Of a stretch of DNA of 64,000 bases, positions 5,045-52,686 are shown one piece after another. A program made the translations under genes and the position numbers. Origin of the DNA: Polycladomyces abyssicola (GTDB taxonomy: Bacteria > Bacillota > Bacilli > Thermoactinomycetales > JIR-001). The stretch lies in contig NZ_AP024601.1 of the NCBI RefSeq assembly GCF_018326425.1, positions 1,724,001 through 1,788,000 on the forward strand. The letters are read 5' to 3'. Under the pieces are notes generated by a model. That model searched no databases. It saw only the letters and a list, made by a program, of their open reading frames with translations, and was not told the DNA's origin. The first letter of the stretch is position 1. Every line of letters begins with the position of its first letter.

Positions 5045-6012
5045 GCGGTTTCCTCCTTTCTGAAGGTAAAGATCAGATAGGGAACGATCAGGAGAGAAAC
5101 AAGTAGCAACATGATGATGGCAATGCTAGCCCCTTGTGCATAATGGCTCCCTTTAAACGTTGTTTCCACCATGTAAAGGCCCGGCATGTCGGTGACGAAA
5201 GCGGCACCGGGTCCGGTCATCGCGTAAATCAGGTCAAAAATTTTGAGTGAAATGTGGCCCAAGATGACGACGGCGCTAAACGTAATCGGTTTGAGTTGCG
5301 GCAATAGGATATAGCGGAAGGTTTGCCATTCAGTGGCCCCGTCCACCCGCGCCGCTTCTTTTAATTCATCTGGGATGGAGCGGAGGCCGGACAGATACAT
5401 GGCCATGGTGAAGCCGGATAACTGCCAAACCGCTGCGATCACAACGGCGATCAATGCCATTGGGACCCCGAACTGGATTTGTCCAATATGTAGAGGGAGG
5501 ACCACTCTGGTCTGGACATACCAAAGTGGCGGATCGGTGATTCCGATTTTTTTCAAAATCAAGTTGATGCCGGTGCTCGGATTAAAGATCCACTGCCAAA
5601 CAACGCCGGTCACGATGAACGATAAAGCCATCGGGAAAATGAAAATGTTGCGAAACAGACCTTCCCATTTGATTTTTTGATCCAACAAAACAGCGAGAAA
5701 CAGCCCCAATCCAATACAAAGGAGAGTGAACAAAACGGTAAAGATGATCGTGTTTCGCAGGTCTGACTGAAAACGGAAGTCGTTGAACAGGAACCGGTAG
5801 TTGCCCAGGCCGCTAAAGGTGAGATCTTGGACAAAGGTGTTCCATTTGCTCAGAGAAATGTAGCCGGTCCAACCGATAAAACCGTAGACAAAAATGGCGA
5901 TGGCTAGGATCGAGGGCAAAAGAAACAGGAAGGCGATCCACTTTTCGCGATTTCGTCCGCTTCTTTTTTTCGGGTGGGTTTGGGGTGTCGTGAATGGAGA
6001 TGCTTGAGCCAT
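5041..6012 (-). CDS. Sugar ABC transporter permease, MalF type
   Basis: Permease of 323 residues, partner of the MalG-type protein. It has a cytoplasmic N-terminus rich in Lys/Arg, then about six membrane helices and the EAA docking loop EAARVDGATEWQTFRYILLP. I start it at ATG 6012, eight bases after AAGGAGG; an upstream in-frame start at 6030 would put the ribosome site inside the gene. It lies 66 bases after the binding-protein gene and overlaps the next permease by an ATGA, which is tight operon packing. Confidence 0.9.
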   Translation of the reverse strand: MAQASPFTTPQTHPKKRSGRNREKWIAFLFLLPSILAIAIFVYGFIGWTGYISLSKWNTFVQDLTFSGLGNYRFLFNDFRFQSDLRNTIIFTVLFTLLCIGLGLFLAVLLDQKIKWEGLFRNIFIFPMALSFIVTGVVWQWIFNPSTGINLILKKIGITDPPLWYVQTRVVLPLHIGQIQFGVPMALIAVVIAAVWQLSGFTMAMYLSGLRSIPDELKEAARVDGATEWQTFRYILLPQLKPITFSAVVILGHISLKIFDLIYAMTGPGAAFVTDMPGLYMVETTFKGSHYAQGASIAIIMLLLVSLLIVPYLIFTFRKEETA

Positions 6013-6078: not shown

Positions 6079-7383
6079 TTATTTCACTCCCAGGTTGGCC
6101 GTGGCATCTTGCTTCATCATTTGAATGGCGAGATCGATGTTCCCTTGCGTGACAAAGGTGTTGATCAATTGGTTGAATTGAGTGACAAATCCTTCCGGAG
6201 CGGCAGAGCCATGTGCCAAACTTGGAACCAATTTGGAGTTTTTGAAATCCTTCATGGTTTGTTGACCATAGACATCATATTTTTTCGGATCGGCATCCAA
6301 CCGGGCCGGGATGGAGCCTTTGAGCGGGTTGAATGCATCTTGCCCTTCCACCGAGCCGAGCACGGCCAAGAACTTTTTGGTTGCCTCGGGGTGTTTAATC
6401 CCTTTGGGTAAGCCGAAGGTGTCAGTGATGATGACAAAGGTGCCGTTCGTGCCCGGGAAGGGAGCCCAGCCAAAATCTTGCTTTGGCTTCAGTTTCAGAT
6501 CATTGGTCAAATATCCTTTGGCCCAATCCCCCATGACGTTCATGGCGGCCTCTCCTTTTCCGACCAATTGAACGCCATCTTGCCAGTTACGCGCGGCATG
6601 GTCCTGGTTCACGTAAGTCAACATTTTTTTGAAGGTGGCAAGCGCTTGTTTGATGCGTGGGTCTTCAAAGGAAAGTTGGCCATTCCATAATTTATCGTAG
6701 TCGTTGGGACCCAAGGTACCAAGGAGAATATTTTCAAAGAGTTGGGTAGCGGTCCAAGGTTCCTTGTCTCCCAGTGCCAAAGGAGTGATCCCTTTCGCTT
6801 TCAAGGTATCCGCCACTTTGAAAAATTCATCAAATGTGGTGGGGGGTTTTAAACCATATTGGTCAAAGATTTTTTTGTTGTACCACAACACATTGCCGCG
6901 ATGGATGTCCACTGGGACGGAATAGATGTTGCCGCCTTTGCTGACAAGGTTGATTAGGGCAGGGGGAAATTTGTCTGTCCAGCCTTGTTGTTTGTAAAAA
7001 TCGTTTAAGGGTTCCATTTTTCCGGCCGCGACCCAACTGTCATTCAGTTCGGCTCCCCCGTGCACTTGGAAGGTATCCGGAGGATCGTTTCCTTGCATTC
7101 TCGTGGCCAACACCGTTTTGGCGTTGGTACCGGCGCCGCCGGCCACGGCAGCGTTAATGACTTCAATGTCGGGATTTTTTTCTTTAAAAAGCTTGATCAA
7201 TGCTTTCAGTCCGTCTTCTTCTCCGGCACCCGTCCACCAACTGAAGATTTCGACCTGGTTTACCTTTTGGGCATCCGACTTGGGAGCGGTTGCTGTTTGT
7301 TGATTGCAAGCCACCATGACGAAGACCAAGGGCGCCAGAAACAGAAACGAACGAAACGAACGAAGCGAACCAAAGCGTTTCAA
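6079..7383 (-). CDS. Glucose/mannose-type solute-binding lipoprotein
   Basis: A 434-residue extracellular binding protein that feeds sugar to the two permeases. The signal peptide ends in a lipobox (FVMVAC, Cys 26), so the mature protein is anchored to the membrane outer face. The mature sequence (EIFSWWTGAGEEDGLKALIK; GGAGTNAKTVLATRM; NDPPDTFQVHGGAEL) closely recalls the Thermus glucose/mannose-binding protein family, which is why I favour glucose/mannose over maltose; that assignment is from memory of the family. The start is TTG at 7383 with AGGTGGGGAG five bases before it. Confidence 0.88.
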   Translation of the reverse strand: MKRFGSLRSFRSFLFLAPLVFVMVACNQQTATAPKSDAQKVNQVEIFSWWTGAGEEDGLKALIKLFKEKNPDIEVINAAVAGGAGTNAKTVLATRMQGNDPPDTFQVHGGAELNDSWVAAGKMEPLNDFYKQQGWTDKFPPALINLVSKGGNIYSVPVDIHRGNVLWYNKKIFDQYGLKPPTTFDEFFKVADTLKAKGITPLALGDKEPWTATQLFENILLGTLGPNDYDKLWNGQLSFEDPRIKQALATFKKMLTYVNQDHAARNWQDGVQLVGKGEAAMNVMGDWAKGYLTNDLKLKPKQDFGWAPFPGTNGTFVIITDTFGLPKGIKHPEATKKFLAVLGSVEGQDAFNPLKGSIPARLDADPKKYDVYGQQTMKDFKNSKLVPSLAHGSAAPEGFVTQFNQLINTFVTQGNIDLAIQMMKQDATANLGVK

Positions 7384-7639
7384 TAAAACTCCCCACCTTT
7401 TTAGATTAGTATTTTCAGGAAAATAAAGGTTAGAAAGTTGGGAAATAGGTTTATATTCTTAGTATATATTATAGATTGTATTATTGAAAAGATATAACAG
7501 AATGACCTTTTGTATATCAGCTATTCTGATCAAAAGATCGTAGCCTCCAGGGTCTCCAGCTTCCTAAGCAATTGTTTTCCTCTCTTCTAGAGAAGCAAAG
7601 CCAGTTTTTTGACGTTTTGAACCACGGCAGTAATCCTAT

Positions 7640-8173
7640 CTATTCTATTATTCTCATGATTGGGTCTTGGTCGTGAAAGGCGATACATATCGGGATTTTG
7701 CTTTTTACTTTTCGTGAAGCCTTTGCAAAAACAACTACTGTTCTAGCGACCAAATAAAGAGTAATACCCACTGCCTTTTCCGTTTTATCAAAACCATTTT
7801 CGGAATAGATATGAGCAAATTCAACTATATCTGGACCTTTTAATTCCTCTACCCAATCGCAAGCCCAATCATCGTCCTGCTCTAATAACGGATGATAATT
7901 CGTGCAGATAAAAAAATGACTACTCCACTCGTTGTCTAAGTCATATTCATAATAGATGGCTTTCGCCGAATAATCATGAGCTAATTTTATTGATTTAGTA
8001 AGCCCTATCTCCAAAAGTTGTTGAAGCTTATCCAGATTTATCTTTTCAATTTTTTTAGCTTCTTCTGCACCAGCTAACTGGGAACATAAAGAGTAATACT
8101 TTTGTTCAATTTGTAATAAATCGTCATAAAGCAATTCATTTTGCATTCGCTCAAGATAATCATAAATATTCAC
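7640..8173 (-). CDS. Hypothetical protein, 177 residues
   Basis: Acidic, AT-rich gene with no signal peptide or membrane helix. The N-terminus looks helical (MNIYDYLERMQNELLYDDLL); the middle has aromatic and acidic runs (YYEYDLDNEWSSHFFICTNY, LLEQDDDWACDWVEELKGPD). I do not recognise the family; the size and composition recall immunity-type proteins but there is no toxin gene beside it. Start is GTG at 8173 with GGGGT about ten bases upstream. Base composition differs from the GC-richer core genes, suggesting acquisition by transfer. Confidence 0.6.
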   Translation of the reverse strand: MNIYDYLERMQNELLYDDLLQIEQKYYSLCSQLAGAEEAKKIEKINLDKLQQLLEIGLTKSIKLAHDYSAKAIYYEYDLDNEWSSHFFICTNYHPLLEQDDDWACDWVEELKGPDIVEFAHIYSENGFDKTEKAVGITLYLVARTVVVFAKASRKVKSKIPICIAFHDQDPIMRIIE

Positions 8174-45638: not shown

Positions 45639-47198
45639 TTATTTTGCATACTCCACGGCCCGTGTTTCCCGAATCACCGTTACTTTTATATGTCCCGGAT
45701 AATCCAACCGGTTTTCGATCTCTTTGGTTATTTGACGGGCCAACACAACCGCCTCCGCATCCGATACCTCTTCCGGTCGAACGATGATGCGCACTTCCCG
45801 TCCAGCTTGAATCGCATACGATTTTTCCACCCCATCAAACGAATCGCAGATTTCCTCCAGCTTCTCCAACCGTTTGATGTAGGCTTCAAGCGTCTCGCGT
45901 CGGGCACCGGGACGTGCTGCAGACAAAGCATCCGCCGCTCCGACCAACACCGCAATCACGCTGGTCGCCTCGACGTCGCCGTGATGGGAAGCGATGCCGT
46001 TGATCACTGCGGGGTGTTCATTATACTTTTTAGCCAATTCGATCCCTATTTCGACATGCGATCCTTCCACTTCGTGATCGATCGCCTTCCCGATATCGTG
46101 TAACAGTCCCGCCCGTTTGGCGAGGACGACGTCTTCTCCCAATTCAGCGGCCAAAAGGCCTGCCAAATGAGCCACTTCCATTGAATGTTTCAGCACATTT
46201 TGGCCATAGCTGGTCCGAAACTTCAACCGACCCAGTATTTTGATCAAATCCGGGTGCAACCCGTGAACGCCCGTTTCAAAAGTCGCTTGCTCACCGTATT
46301 CCCGAATGCGCTCATCCACTTCACGTCGGGCTTTTTCTACCATTTCCTCAATGCGGGCCGGATGAATCCGGCCGTCGGCGACCAGTTTCTCCAGTGCCAC
46401 TCTCGCCACTTCGCGCCGAATCGGATCGAACCCGGACAATATAACCGCTTCAGGAGTATCGTCAATGATCAGATCGATCCCCGTCAACGTTTCCAAGGTA
46501 CGGATGTTACGGCCTTCACGTCCGATAATCCGGCCCTTCATTTCGTCATTGGGCAGTGTGACCACCGAGACGGTCGACTCGGCCACGTGATCAGCGGCAC
46601 AACGCTGGATCGCCAGTGAAATGATGTTACGTGCCCGCTTTTCCGCCTCTTCTTTTGCCTGCTGTTCCATCTCTTTGATCATTTGGGCGGTTTCGTGACG
46701 CATCTCGTTTTCCACGCGCTGGAAGATGATTTGCTTCGCTTCCTCGGTGGTCAAACCGGAAATGCGCTCCAATTCTTGGAGTTGTTTTTGGTAGAGCGTT
46801 TCGGTTTCCCGATGGCGTTCCTCGATTTCCTGCTCTTTCTTACCGATAGCTTCCTCGCGCTTTTCCAGCGCTTCCTGTTTGCGATCGAGCGTCTCTTCCT
46901 TCTGCATGAGACGCCGCTCGAAACGTTGCAGTTCATTCCGCTGTTCGCGAATTTCGCGTTCCGCTTCCGTTCGCATCCGGTGGACTTCATCTCGCGCTTC
47001 CACCAGTTTTTCGCGTTTGATTGCTTCTGCCTCTTTGCGAGCTGTTTCGAGTATATGATCGGCCTCTTTTTCCGCGCTGCCAATTCGGGCTTCGGCCGTT
47101 GATTTGCGTAGCCAGTAACCAATCCCGGTACCGATCAACAACGCAAAAAGGAACAGCAACAACAAGCCTGCCACGTCTAGGTCGAGCATCTTTCGCAA
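45639..47198 (-). CDS. rny: Ribonuclease Y
   Basis: Membrane-bound endoribonuclease that initiates mRNA decay. It has one N-terminal membrane helix ([20 protein letters not shown], about residues 9-28), a long charged coiled coil (about 30-200), a KH domain with [20 protein letters not shown] and an HD domain with the metal motif [12 protein letters not shown], and ends TRAVEYAK. Length 519 is usual. The annotated start TTG 47198 is four bases after AGGAGGTG; ATG 47189 is the alternative but further from the site than normal. It works with YmdB and with RicA, both in this window. Confidence 0.96.
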
Positions 47199-47489: not shown

Positions 47490-47509
47490 TTAGCCTGTAC
47501 CATTGTCAA
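47480..47509 (-). promoter_or_regulatory. rny sigma-A promoter
   Basis: TTGACA (47504-47509), 18 bases, TACAAT (47480-47485) on the minus strand. It overlaps the last codons of the upstream Rad50-like C-half gene, so rny is transcribed apart from the repair operon as well as possibly with it. Confidence 0.75.
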
Positions 47510-48167
47510 GGCGGGAAATGGGAATTACTTCCGTTTTTCCGGATTGGAGGCGGACATGGAAGGCTTGGTCTGCTCCTTCAATTAAATGGGGATTATGCGT
47601 GACCAAAATGATCTGCCGATCAAACATTTCACCTGCAGACTTCAAAAACTCCACCATCGGCATCACATATTCGGCACTTACATGCTTGCCGGGTTCATCC
47701 AGAATCAGCGGTCCATCCAATCGCGGCCTGAACGTTTCAATCATGGCTACGCGCAATGCCAGGGAAGTGATGTCCACCACGCCGCCGCCACGGGCGTCTT
47801 GAGGTTTGGTGCGGATGGTACGGCCCTCCCATTCGGTGACAACATAAAATTCGGCAGTCGGTTTTCCTCCGTGTTCGGACAACTCGATTTCAAAGCGGAA
47901 AGCGGAACCGAACACATATTGCAACGCATTGGTGACCAGACTCTCCATCTGTTGCTTGGCCTGTTCACGTGCATATTCAGAAGAGGTTTGCAACAAAACG
48001 CGCACCTTGTCGAACAGATCCAGTTGCTTTTTCAACTCTTCCAAACGGGCATGCGCCTGTTGACGGAGCCGATCCAGCTCCTCCCGCTTGGCTTCGCGTT
48101 TCAACCACTCGGAGCGCGCGGATGCGATGGCCTCCCGCAAACACGCCAACTTCTCAGAACGAGTCAT
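47490..48167 (-). CDS. Rad50/SbcC-like ATPase, C-terminal half encoded as a separate protein
   Basis: A 225-residue protein: an N-terminal coiled coil (about 1-65, Arg/Lys/Glu-rich) followed by the C-terminal ATPase lobe of an SMC/Rad50-type ABC ATPase. The signature region is DARGGGVVDITSLALRVAMI (degenerate: GGG in place of SGGE), Walker B is GPLILDEPGKHVS with the catalytic Glu, and the switch His is in ILVTHNPHLIEGADQ. Alone it lacks Walker A, which is found in the other half (48381-49868). ATG 48167 overlaps the stop of the coiled-coil gene by ATGA, so stoichiometric production is likely. Last gene of the recA operon. Confidence 0.8.
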   Translation of the reverse strand: MTRSEKLACLREAIASARSEWLKREAKREELDRLRQQAHARLEELKKQLDLFDKVRVLLQTSSEYAREQAKQQMESLVTNALQYVFGSAFRFEIELSEHGGKPTAEFYVVTEWEGRTIRTKPQDARGGGVVDITSLALRVAMIETFRPRLDGPLILDEPGKHVSAEYVMPMVEFLKSAGEMFDRQIILVTHNPHLIEGADQAFHVRLQSGKTEVIPISRLDNGTG

Positions 48168-48415
48168 GATCCTTGAATCAGCTCCTGGGGCAGTTTCTCC
48201 CATGCTTCCTGCAAGTGGCGCTCAATCTCCTCTTCCAAACGGGCAATCTCTTCTTCCAAACGGGATGGTTCCACTCCCAGTTCCTGCAATTCCTGTAGGA
48301 TTTCCTCCTCCTGCTTCTCCAGTTGCTCCAAGCGGGCTTCCGCTTTATAGCGAAGATCTTTCGCTTTTTCCAAGGCGGTTTTAATCTCTTTGATTTTCTC
48401 TTCCAACTGCTGCAT
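48164..48415 (-). CDS. Small coiled-coil protein between the two Rad50-like halves
   Basis: An 83-residue protein that is almost all heptad-type coiled coil (MQQLEEKIKEIKTALEKAKD; EEEIARLEEEIERHLQE), with one Gly/Pro break at about residue 47 (LGVEPS) that could form a hairpin. It starts at ATG 48415, inside the end of the N-half gene (35-base overlap), and ends in an ATGA overlap with the C-half gene. It looks like a third piece of a split Rad50 arm or a linker subunit. No family is recognised. Confidence 0.65.
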   Translation of the reverse strand: MQQLEEKIKEIKTALEKAKDLRYKAEARLEQLEKQEEEILQELQELGVEPSRLEEEIARLEEEIERHLQEAWEKLPQELIQGS

Positions 48416-49868
48416 GGGAAACTCCTCCTCGTACTTCGGCCAAAATGTGTTGAAGCACGGAACCGTCGACGGGGGAACCACATGTCGGACAGCGGCCAAG
48501 CTGTTGAAACAAACGCAGCATTTGCGAGGTGTTGGCTTCGATCATCTCGGCATTGGCCTTCAGGTACTTCCGCCCATCCTCCAGCCGTTTGCGGCAATCG
48601 CCGAGCCGTTGTGCAGACTGCGTCAGGGCACACCACCGCCCATACGCTTCCTCGGCGGCAGACACCGCCCGCATCGCTTCAGCCAAGGTGCGTGTCCGTT
48701 CTAATGTCCGAACCATGCGCTCGCGATCCTGGCGAAGCCGGTGCAGACGCGGCTTCAGGCGCAACATGCGATCACGAATCGCCCGTTTGGCATCCAGCTG
48801 GGAGACGACTGTGGCCACCATATCGACACCATCGGTCAACCGAAGACGTTGCTGATATCGCGCTTGTTCGTTTTTACAGGCATTGTACAACGCGTGCAAT
48901 CGTCTCAAGGTGTGCAGATGAACTCGTTGGTGTTCCAAATTGTTGAGGGCTTCCGCTGCCTCCCCCAGCTTCTCGGTCATCGTGAGCGTACGGCGGCATG
49001 CCTGCTGCTCCCGTTGTCCTTTTTGATACTCCTCCAGACGGCGTCGCAACCATACCAGACGTTGACCGTCCGCCTGCAGGGAAGAGATTTTCGCCTCTGC
49101 CTCCGGCAACTGTCGCAACCGTTGGAGGATGCTTCGCTGGGTCGCGATTTGCTCCCGGCAATCCCGCCATTTTTGCAGCAGGATCCTGAGGCGGGACAGA
49201 CGCTCCTCCTTTTTCACTGCCGCTTGGAAATGCGCTTCCGACTCCTCCAATTCCCGTCCCAGTCGGGGAAGGTCTTCGTACGGCTTCAAAGCTTCCGCCA
49301 GGCGGGTCGCTTCCTGCTCCACGTGTTTGATCTCGGTAGCCAGCGATTGCCGGTCCCGCATCGTATCCCGCAAGGCGATGTCCATAATGTGGGCACCGCT
49401 GATCCGTCCGATGGATTTGGCGCGTATACTGCCTGTCTCAGCCAACAAAAACGGGCTTTCCAATTGGCTGCCGAATTGGGCGGACAGTTCCCAGTCCTTG
49501 TCCAATCGGACCGGATGCATGTTGTGTGCATCCAGTACCTCTTGCGGTACACCGCTCCCGAATCCTTCAAATACCTGTTCCTGTCCGTCCGGGGTCCGGA
49601 TAATGTAACGGTTGACGGAAGCGGAACGTTCCCGGGCGATTTCCGTTCCGTCGGACATCGTCAGAACGACACGGCATTTGTCCGCTCCGATCCGAATATA
49701 ATCCGTCCCTCGCGGCTGATTGAACAACACCCAGCGCAACGCGCGCAAGATGGCGCTTTTGCCGCTGTCCGACGGACCGATCAGCACATTGAGCCCATCG
49801 GCAAATTGAATCTCCGTCCGTTCGTGCGACTGGAAATTTTCGATGTAGAGACGCTTCAGCCGCTTCAA
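48381..49868 (-). CDS. Rad50/SbcC-like ATPase, N-terminal half with zinc-hook motif
   Basis: A 495-residue protein. The N-terminal lobe has IENFQSHERTEIQFADGLNV, Walker A GPSDSGKSAI (residues 31-40) and the Q-loop region SPFLLAETGSIRAKSIGRIS, followed by about 280 residues of coiled coil. Near the end sits RCPTCGSPV (Cys 460 and 463), the Cys-x-x-Cys of a Rad50 zinc hook, after which the protein stops. Signature and Walker B motifs are absent and supplied by the gene at 47490. ATG 49868 overlaps the nuclease stop by ATGA. Wording of the Q-loop recalls phage gp46-like ATPases, so a phage origin is possible. Confidence 0.82.
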   Translation of the reverse strand: MKRLKRLYIENFQSHERTEIQFADGLNVLIGPSDSGKSAILRALRWVLFNQPRGTDYIRIGADKCRVVLTMSDGTEIARERSASVNRYIIRTPDGQEQVFEGFGSGVPQEVLDAHNMHPVRLDKDWELSAQFGSQLESPFLLAETGSIRAKSIGRISGAHIMDIALRDTMRDRQSLATEIKHVEQEATRLAEALKPYEDLPRLGRELEESEAHFQAAVKKEERLSRLRILLQKWRDCREQIATQRSILQRLRQLPEAEAKISSLQADGQRLVWLRRRLEEYQKGQREQQACRRTLTMTEKLGEAAEALNNLEHQRVHLHTLRRLHALYNACKNEQARYQQRLRLTDGVDMVATVVSQLDAKRAIRDRMLRLKPRLHRLRQDRERMVRTLERTRTLAEAMRAVSAAEEAYGRWCALTQSAQRLGDCRKRLEDGRKYLKANAEMIEANTSQMLRLFQQLGRCPTCGSPVDGSVLQHILAEVRGGVSHAAVGRENQRD

Positions 49869-50857
49869 CGCTCCCGTCCCCCTTCCGTCCCCAACCGTTC
49901 CTGCACGATGGCGATGCGCCGCATCGCCTCATATTTGACATCCGGTTCAATTCCTTCCAACCGGGCGATTTCCTCAATGATGTCGATCGCATCGATCCCC
50001 TGAAATTCGCCGGTGGCACGTACCTGACGAACAAAGGCGGCCAATTTCTCCTCCCGGTAGGCGGCTTGTTCCAGATAGGAACGGTCCAGCACATCCGTTC
50101 CCTTTGCCGCACATTGCAAGGCGATAAGTTCCACCTGCACCGATTCGGCAAACGTGAGCAAAGCGACTTGTGGTTGCCGCCGCATCTCCGAAGGATGGTT
50201 GTTGATGCGAGCCAAGGCGCCAGGATTGACAATGTACCGTCCCTCCCGACGCTGAACAGGGAACCCGGCATGGTAATGCCCGGTAAGCAGGACATCCACC
50301 GAGTCAAACCACAGATGATCCAATAATGTATGCGGCACGCCTTCGGGCAGGTGGCGATCCACCGCCATGCCGTGTACCATATGTACGCAAAAATCGGCAC
50401 CCGTTACGTTGCTCACCGCATAATCCAATCCAGGATCCCGTTTGTCCAACTCGTGGTGAAACGGTTGACCGCTGAGCTGGACGGTCACGCCGCCTCTTTC
50501 CAACTTGACCGTTTCCCCCGGTCGAAGCAGGCGGATGACACCGAATGCATCCAACAGCCCAAGCATCGATCGATCGACCGTATCCGGGTTATGCCCGTAA
50601 ATGTCGTGATTACCAGCGATCGTATACAGCGGCACCTTCAATCGACGCAACAGGGAGGCAAATTCACGAACGACCGCCGGGGATAGATCGGGACGATCAA
50701 AAAAGTCGCCGCCGTGTAAGACCGCATCCACTTGGCGGTCATGCGCCAGCTGGATCACCTCTTCCAGCTTGCGACGCATGGCTGTCGGAAAGTCGTCCGT
50801 GCGGCTGCGGGGTGACGTTCCCCTGATATGCGTGTCGGTCAAATACAACAGCCGCAT
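49865..50857 (-). CDS. Mre11/SbcD-like nuclease (calcineurin-like phosphoesterase)
   Basis: A 330-residue DNA-repair type phosphoesterase and the likely nuclease partner of the split Rad50-like ATPase. All five metal motifs are visible: YLTDTHIRG (residues 6-14), LHGGDFFDRPD, YTIAGNHDIYGHN, CVHMVHGMAVD and VLLTGHYHAG. The C-terminal 90 residues (AAFVRQVRATGEFQGIDAID; MRRIAIVQERLG) probably bind the ATPase coiled coil. It begins 16 bases after the recX stop and overlaps the ATPase N-half by four bases. Confidence 0.87.
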   Translation of the reverse strand: MRLLYLTDTHIRGTSPRSRTDDFPTAMRRKLEEVIQLAHDRQVDAVLHGGDFFDRPDLSPAVVREFASLLRRLKVPLYTIAGNHDIYGHNPDTVDRSMLGLLDAFGVIRLLRPGETVKLERGGVTVQLSGQPFHHELDKRDPGLDYAVSNVTGADFCVHMVHGMAVDRHLPEGVPHTLLDHLWFDSVDVLLTGHYHAGFPVQRREGRYIVNPGALARINNHPSEMRRQPQVALLTFAESVQVELIALQCAAKGTDVLDRSYLEQAAYREEKLAAFVRQVRATGEFQGIDAIDIIEEIARLEGIEPDVKYEAMRRIAIVQERLGTEGGRER

Positions 50858-50873
50858 CCGATCTCATCCCCTC

Positions 50874-51524
50874 TCATTGTGAATCCCGATGACGTTCGCG
50901 ATAGTGTTGCAGGATGGAGCAGACGAGCGATTGCGGAAAACCCCGGCGCAACAAATAATGGCCCAACCGTCGTTCCACGGTCGGCCACGGATACCGGCGC
51001 AGCCGTTCATATCGTTTTTCCGCCAGCGATCTCGCCAACTCCTGATCCGCTTCTTCGGGAACCTCCGCCAACACCTCGTTGATGATGTCGGCGGCAATCC
51101 CCTTTTGCTCCAATTCTTTTCGCAACAGCAAACGGCCACGACCATTTCCGCGTCGTTGTTCCACCCAGGCGGCTGCAAACCGGCGGTCGTCGATATAACC
51201 GTAACGGTTGAGCTTGTCCATCGCCGCCCGCACATGCGGGGCAGCAAACCCCTTTCCGACGAGATAACGCTCCACTTCCCAAGCCGTTCGCGGTTTGTAT
51301 TGCAAATACTTGAGCGCGGCCTGCCACACTTTGTTGCGTTCTTCCTCTTCCAAAACGGCATCGATCTCAACCGGGTCCACCCGACGCCCCTTGGTCAACC
51401 GCATTTTGACCAAAACGTCCTCATGTACGGAAACCGGCTCGCAACCCTCGATGAACACACGGTATCGGGCCGTTGTTCCCGGTTGCCGCTCAATCCGAAT
51501 GATGGTGCCCGGCTCCTGGTTCAT
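50874..51524 (-). CDS. recX: Regulatory protein RecX
   Basis: A 216-residue, helical modulator of RecA filaments. Repeating three-helix units are seen: ALKYLQYKPRTAWEVERYLV, MDKLNRYGYIDDRRFAAAWV and RRYPWPTVERRLGHYLLRRG. The N-terminal 70 residues (YRVFIEGCEPVSVHEDVLVK) form the extra domain typical of Firmicute RecX. It follows recA after 40 bases in the same direction, so both would rise in an SOS response. In B. subtilis recX is not beside recA, so this is a different arrangement. Confidence 0.9.
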   Translation of the reverse strand: MNQEPGTIIRIERQPGTTARYRVFIEGCEPVSVHEDVLVKMRLTKGRRVDPVEIDAVLEEEERNKVWQAALKYLQYKPRTAWEVERYLVGKGFAAPHVRAAMDKLNRYGYIDDRRFAAAWVEQRRGNGRGRLLLRKELEQKGIAADIINEVLAEVPEEADQELARSLAEKRYERLRRYPWPTVERRLGHYLLRRGFPQSLVCSILQHYRERHRDSQ

Positions 51525-51564: not shown

Positions 51565-52617
51565 TCAGGCTTCGAGCTCCAGTTGCTCGGCTTTTTCTCC
51601 GGACTCTTGGGCCGCTTCGGATTTTTTCGGTTCAGCCAAGCCGTAGTGGGCACGGATACTGGCTTCGATCCTGGCGCACAACTCCGCGTTTTCTTTGAGG
51701 AACTGTTTCGCGTTTTCACGGCCCTGTCCCAGACGCTCACCCTCAAATGAATACCAAGCGCCGCTCTTGCTGATGATGTCCAACTCGGTGGCGATGTCCA
51801 GAATGCTGCCCTCTTTGGAGATGCCTTCACCGTACATGATGTCCACGTCGGCTTGCTTGAACGGCGGAGCCACTTTGTTTTTCACCACTTTGATCTTGGT
51901 GCGGCTGCCCACCATCTCGTTTCCTTGCTTGATCGTCTCCGCACGACGCACTTCCAGGCGGATGCTGGAGTAGAATTTCAATGCCCGACCGCCGGGAGTG
52001 GTTTCCGGGTTACCGAACATGACCCCCACTTTTTCCCGAATTTGGTTGATGAAAATCGCGATCGTCTTGGATTTGCTGATCGCGCCGGACAGCTTCCGCA
52101 GCGCTTGCGACATCAGGCGGGCTTGTAAGCCGACATGGGAATCCCCCATCTCTCCTTCAATTTCCGCTTTGGGAACCAATGCGGCCACCGAGTCGATGAC
52201 GATGATATCGATCGCCCCGCTGCGCACCAGTGCCTCGGCGATCTCCAATGCCTGCTCTCCCGTGTCTGGCTGGGACAGCAACAACTCATCGATGTTGACA
52301 CCCAGCTTTTGGGCGTACACCGGGTCCAGTGCATGCTCCGCGTCGATGAATGCGGCTTGCCCCCCGACACGCTGTACTTCGGCGATCGCATGGAGTGCCA
52401 CGGTCGTTTTCCCCGAAGACTCCGGCCCGTATACCTCAATGATCCGGCCGCGGGGATATCCGCCCACTCCCAGCGCAATATCCAACGCAATCGATCCGCT
52501 GGAAATCGTTTCTACCTGGGTCGCGGCCGCTTCTCCCATCCGCATGATCGAGCCTTTACCAAACTGCTTTTCGATCTGTCTCAATGCCATTTCCAACGCT
52601 TGACGACGGTCGGACAT
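51565..52617 (-). CDS. recA: Recombinase RecA
   Basis: A 350-residue ATPase that forms filaments on single-stranded DNA, drives homologous recombination and triggers LexA self-cleavage. Walker [18 protein letters not shown] (about residues 64-80), [20 protein letters not shown], Walker [15 protein letters not shown], loop L1 [20 protein letters not shown] and loop L2 [20 protein letters not shown] are all present. ATG 52617 has AAGGAGTGA eight bases upstream. A sigma-A promoter and a LexA-type box lie just upstream. First gene of recA-recX-Mre11-Rad50. Confidence 0.98.
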
Positions 52618-52657
52618 GTATCGTATCACTCCTTGTCTCGTTTCGCCTCGTATCCTC

Positions 52658-52686
52658 ATCATACATTGTTTTGGATTCTTTGCCAA
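52658..52686 (-). promoter_or_regulatory. recA sigma-A promoter
   Basis: TTGGCA (52681-52686), 17 bases, TATGAT (52658-52663) on the minus strand; the recA start is about 40 bases downstream. Confidence 0.8.

Follow-up and report, generated by a model that had tools for sequence, protein, structure and literature searches.

Beside recA in Polycladomyces abyssicola, within a window of 64,000 nucleotides that is the whole stretch of DNA analysed here, four overlapping genes encode an Mre11-like nuclease and a Rad50-like ATPase divided over three proteins. We propose, with a probability of roughly 0.8, that the products form a four-subunit Mre11–Rad50 complex that stands in for SbcCD and whose ATPase head would be assembled in trans. 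The separate pieces, their motifs, the hook, the rod repeats, the constant linkage and the near-exclusion with SbcC are evident at the level of sequence; the assembly, stoichiometry and activity given below are proposals built on them. Few repair machines are as conserved as Mre11–Rad50, in which Rad50 is generally regarded as one unbroken chain with a coil that closes on itself. Lineages across the phylum Bacillota appear instead to split the head over two proteins and to add a third, helical subunit; the cassette adjoining the recA locus would use four small proteins in place of the two of Mre11–Rad50. The arm changes by fixed steps of 47 residues and one branch has dropped it, making the variants of the cassette natural material for testing the roles of coil and hook. 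The cassette may also explain why many Bacillota are seemingly without SbcCD.

All four genes lie on the minus strand between 50857 and 47490, with coordinates and motifs that agree with the preliminary description: (i) an Mre11/SbcD-like nuclease of 330 residues (P0001, 49865–50857) with motifs DTH, GGDFFD, GNHD, H162 and GHxH; (ii) a Rad50-like N-half of 495 residues with a TTG start (P0002, 48381–49868), comprising the N-lobe, a long helical rod and a zinc hook; (iii) an 83-residue helical subunit (P0003, 48164–48415), recognized by a match to phrog_18563 (2.4e-7) and by its structure model and (iv) a Rad50-like C-half of 225 residues (P0004, 47490–48167) with a short helix, signature, Walker B, D-loop and H-loop. 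The length of the C-half is counted from the ATG at 48167; the mechanical reading frame starts at 48203. The overlaps of 35 bases between the N-half and small-protein genes and of 4 bases (ATGA) between the small-protein and C-half genes are as first described, but the 4-base overlap of the nuclease and N-half genes is TTGA rather than ATGA. On the same strand lie recX (50874–51524) and recA (51565–52686) to one side and rny (45639–47198), then ymdB and spoVS, to the other, giving the locus order recA-[recX]-cassette-rny-ymdB-spoVS.

Searches of Pfam, NCBIfam and the PDB group the nuclease with Mre11/SbcD and assign both halves to Rad50, in all cases short of the curated cut-offs set for the named equivalogs. 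The nuclease scores 38.8 bits against SbcD (TIGR00619; curated cut-off 77.65), and no match to SbcC (TIGR00618) is listed for the cassette proteins in the NCBIfam search. Rad50 and Mre11 are the closest solved relatives by sequence, Rad50 tops the fold matches of the N-half model and the N-half profile matches the solved Rad50 hooks 6zff and 1l8d. A head made from separate N- and C-lobes has a structural counterpart, as the two lobes stand as two chains in solved Rad50 heads such as 1f2t. That the closest solved proteins are Rad50 and Mre11, and that the four genes are found together repeatedly, shows the arrangement not to be a chance one. The profile search of the ATPase pieces that had been called for also leads to phages: each piece is matched near full length by a PHROGs family of its own, phrog_16465 for the N-half (3.9e-70), phrog_18563 for the small protein and phrog_15167 for the C-half (2.5e-67), which implies that the three-piece layout exists in phages.

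The conserved motifs are distributed over the chains. The nuclease carries the Mre11 phosphoesterase motifs I–V, as do members of the Mre11–Rad50/SbcCD family, and the elements of a Rad50-type ABC head are present on the two halves. Walker A (GPSDSGKS, N-half residues 31–38, 49755–49778, minus strand) has G31, G36 and K37 in 145 of 146 homologues, and the Q-loop of the N-half is Q135. The C-half supplies Walker B (LDEP; LILDE at residues 154–158, 47694–47708, minus strand), with the catalytic Glu in 156/157, and the H-loop His191 (47595–47597, minus strand; 156/157). Residues of the nuclease, Walker A, Q-loop, Walker B and H-loop are near-invariant across the 146–157 homologues compared. The coil ends in a zinc hook, CPTC (N-half residues 460–463, 48480–48491, minus strand), within a region that aligns to 6zff and 1l8d. 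The hook cysteines are invariant in alignment A2 and are found in 146/146 rows, a count that is partly by construction, as those rows were preselected for a CxxC; in an unselected listing and in A2 they are likewise kept, barring the truncated L134 and the single-chain forms. At the site of the Rad50 LSGGE signature the C-half instead has ARGGGVVD (residues 125–132, 47772–47795, minus strand), and homologues mostly read (A/S/D)RGGG(V/I)xD, a departure from the LSGGE type of Mre11–Rad50. The GGG had been called degenerate, but G127 (154/157), G129 (154/157) and D132 (153/157) are near-invariant, so the sequence is a trait of the family.

In the mechanism that we favor, the N-half (Walker A and Q-loop) and the C-half (signature, Walker B and H-loop) would combine in trans to form a single ABC ATPase head. 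With ATP, two such heads would clamp shut around DNA and control the Mre11-like nuclease located at their base, and by analogy with the activities of SbcCD (PMC6265447) the nuclease may trim free ends and cut near blocked ends or hairpins. Since the signature lacks the Ser of LSGGE, head closure may differ from that of Rad50. The long rod of 47-residue modules ends in a Rad50-type zinc hook that would join two copies of the N-half, with the 83-residue protein as a probable companion of the rod or hook.

Sets of these four genes are found repeatedly in Bacillota, on chromosomes and plasmids and in phages. A genome scan returned eleven chromosomal loci in named organisms, namely Paludifilum, Thermoactinomyces, Halalkalibacter, Alkalihalophilus, Alkalihalobacillus, Shouchella and Bacillus solitudinis; in all eleven, nuclease, N-half, small protein and C-half follow in succession, flanked by recA and rny. 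The cassette occurs in 40 of the 42 genomes of the order. In the class the C-half score is bimodal, with 50 of 399 genomes above 200 bits and the next best at 44.6, and in the phylum the cassette is present in 66/398 genomes (C-half at E up to 1e-12). Viral contigs gave no hits when scanned with a single sequence, but a scan with an alignment recovered 50 IMG/VR loci with the same split.

Among 156 loci with a C-half, several of which represent the same genome twice, 141 have all four pieces, and the break falls just after the conserved CPxC hook. These results bear out two earlier expectations, that the split is real and not decay and that the pieces travel together, the exceptions being mostly contig ends or single-chain fusions. 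Seven incomplete loci are at or near contig ends (L138, L146, L150 and L187–L190), three are single-chain forms (L184–L186) and three have a divergent small reading frame found by eye (L111, L149 and L151). L142 has the small reading frame but its N-half was not found, and for L106 the nuclease was not found within the 14.7 kb examined. Five loci scored as lacking the small protein (L111, L142, L146, L149 and L151) each have, by eye, a fitting short reading frame before the C-half gene; in some divergent loci (e.g. L026 and L027) plain blastp missed the small protein and a profile search recovered it. A Lacibacter candidate (L020, 24.9 bits) was excluded, and no second Mre11–Rad50 pair was found in the region around L001 (L152).

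Order and fusion vary. Phage vB_BboS-125 and B. velezensis p3 have the order N-half, small protein, C-half, nuclease, and plasmids of Geobacillus, Aneurinibacillus and P. polymyxa, as well as phages, have the nuclease and N-half fused. One family (f102, three genomes: L184, L185 and L186) has Mre11, N-lobe and C-lobe in a single coil-less chain of 684–700 residues, a form that we count as new; no CxxC was found after the lobe, and no small protein was found. In the tree described below the family lies within the chromosomal group lacking recA synteny, which suggests, on this midpoint-rooted tree, that the single chain is a derived fusion. Natural fusions that join the pieces (Mre11 with N-half; Mre11 with N-lobe and C-lobe) argue for the four-subunit reading.

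The rod spans N-half residues 159–457 (about 290 residues; 48498–49394, minus strand) and is built of 47-residue tandem repeats. Profile autocorrelation over 74 sequences of the middle length class peaks at a lag of 47 (0.013), followed by 94 (−0.067); the column-shuffle control reaches at most −0.464 across lags 30 to 80. Distances from Q-loop to hook cluster near 278–281, 321–328 and 371–377, so the rod varies in length by 47-residue steps. Its partners remain constant where their starts are clear, the small protein near 77–90 residues and the C-half near 211–230; we regard this combination as new. The N-half model (mean pLDDT 76.5, pTM 0.37) shows the lobe, a run of helix with breaks near 198, 253, 300 and 345–351, and the hook. 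With three chains, a variable rod and a C-half and small protein of constant size, the cassette does not have the single Rad50/SbcC chain with its antiparallel coil, and because the rod changes in repeats and length and those partners do not, we infer that the arm lacks the matching descending strand of an antiparallel coil like that of Rad50. A rod of this length has no equally long descending partner in the other pieces, which would make a canonical Rad50 coil impossible. The arm might instead be modular, growing or shrinking by 47-residue units and either pairing in parallel with a second N-half or being lined by several copies of the 83-residue protein, in which case its length could change without altering any partner. 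This proposal is tentative, and we hold it at somewhat less than even odds; if true, it would be a new way to build the arms of SMC/Rad50-type proteins.

The 83-residue protein is modeled confidently (pLDDT 91) as two helices, 2–45 and 50–74, joined by a GVxP turn. With the head working as proposed, the protein could also serve as a regulator or as a loader, binding to the head or nuclease and standing outside the rod and hook. Such a role would fit the placement of its gene, which immediately precedes that of the C-half at almost every locus. We nonetheless think this unlikely, given that forms without rod and hook yielded no small protein.

In support of a complex that stands in for SbcCD, the cassette occurs mostly where SbcC is missing, an association that we count as new, uncorrected for kinship. 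In the class, SbcC (TIGR00618 at E up to 1e-20, with only two SbcC candidates scored per genome here and in the phylum scan) is absent from 46/50 cassette genomes versus 64/349 genomes without the cassette, and present in 4/50 versus 285/349 (Fisher p 4e-25, kinship uncorrected). In the phylum it is absent from 64/66 versus 168/332 and present in 2/66 versus 164/332 (Fisher p 1e-14, likewise uncorrected). The six genomes with both have either mobile-type cassettes (L082, L083, L195 and L201) or chromosomal ones (L064 and L092). Within the order, G018 is the only genome with SbcC and an SbcD above its cut-off, and the cassette is absent there; G017 has neither cassette nor SbcCD at the thresholds used. 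The single SbcD-like match in the window's genome is the cassette's own nuclease. Many genomes of the order, the window's not among them, have a second SbcD-like frame of about 380–440 residues, perhaps YhaO-like.

Decay, recent phage capture and a role in defence were set aside on the completeness of homologous loci, the tree grouping and the housekeeping neighbors. The preliminary description had suggested a phage module captured by the chromosome, and phages and prophages do often carry this split, as the PHROGs families and IMG/VR loci attest. The tree places the window copy elsewhere. A quick tree of 122 rows (152 usable rows thinned at 93% identity), midpoint-rooted and without an outgroup, has three blocks: (i) other chromosomal, plasmid and single-chain copies (36 rows); (ii) recA-locus chromosomal copies and (iii) phage and mobile copies (39 rows, support 98). 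The window copy is one of 30 recA-locus rows that cluster together (support 100), away from the phage and mobile copies. In addition, other classes of the phylum contribute sixteen loci with recA and rny beside the cassette, which is near universal in the order. Capture is therefore very unlikely, and the recA-locus form is most simply read as vertically inherited, although a very old entry from a phage could lie beneath it as the tree has no outgroup.

Lamassu LmuB and Gabija GajA have an SMC/Rad50-like ABC head in common with the cassette; they are single chains with defence partners. The N-half matches the PADLOC models for LmuB (1.2e-16) and GajA, which could indicate an anti-phage system of either kind rather than a repair enzyme. 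These matches reflect the shared head, however, and we consider a defence role highly improbable: the identified neighbors recX, recA and rny are housekeeping genes, no defence partners were recognized beside the locus (neighbors partly scanned against PADLOC), nearly every genome of the order has the cassette and phages carry it too. The presence of two halves of a protein in neighboring frames might recall a single rad50 gene broken by frameshift or sequencing error, a chance we put as negligible with the same break, the same small protein and motifs conserved across all pieces at more than 100 loci.

Compared with SbcCD (TIGR00618, TIGR00619), the cassette shares the Mre11-type nuclease, Walker A and B, Q-loop, H-loop, CPxC hook and the adjacency of the genes, but its Rad50 is three chains with RGGG rather than LSGGE, an extra 83-residue subunit and a rod whose 47-residue repeats face no descending arm of equal length. 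PHROGs holds phrog_16465, phrog_18563 and phrog_15167 as separate families (exonuclease, unknown and ATPase), without joining them as a single split Rad50. A record of 218,948 bases (L104), which we take to be Bacillus phage 0305phi8-36, encodes an Mre11–N-half fusion with the small protein and C-half just downstream. Yoshida et al. 2011 (PMC3175470) described Mre11/Rad50 fusions including that of this phage, with one P-loop segment ‘not observed’; L104 has the same fusion and additionally shows the small protein and C-half. The PHROGs families and this 2011 fusion without a C-half make the individual pieces known. This qualifies the earlier statement that no such system had been described, which otherwise holds: in the open literature searched, only the fusion paper surfaced and none on a split SbcC/Rad50 system, so the system, as far as found, is apparently new.

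Three genomes (G470, G507 and G687) have two cassettes each (L193, L194 and L196–L199). In phage vB_BboS-125 (L021) the Mre11 gene, at 6959–7939, lies in an unannotated stretch of NC_048735, and an AP2-domain gene at 5119–5691, possibly a homing endonuclease, sits between the N-half and small-protein genes.
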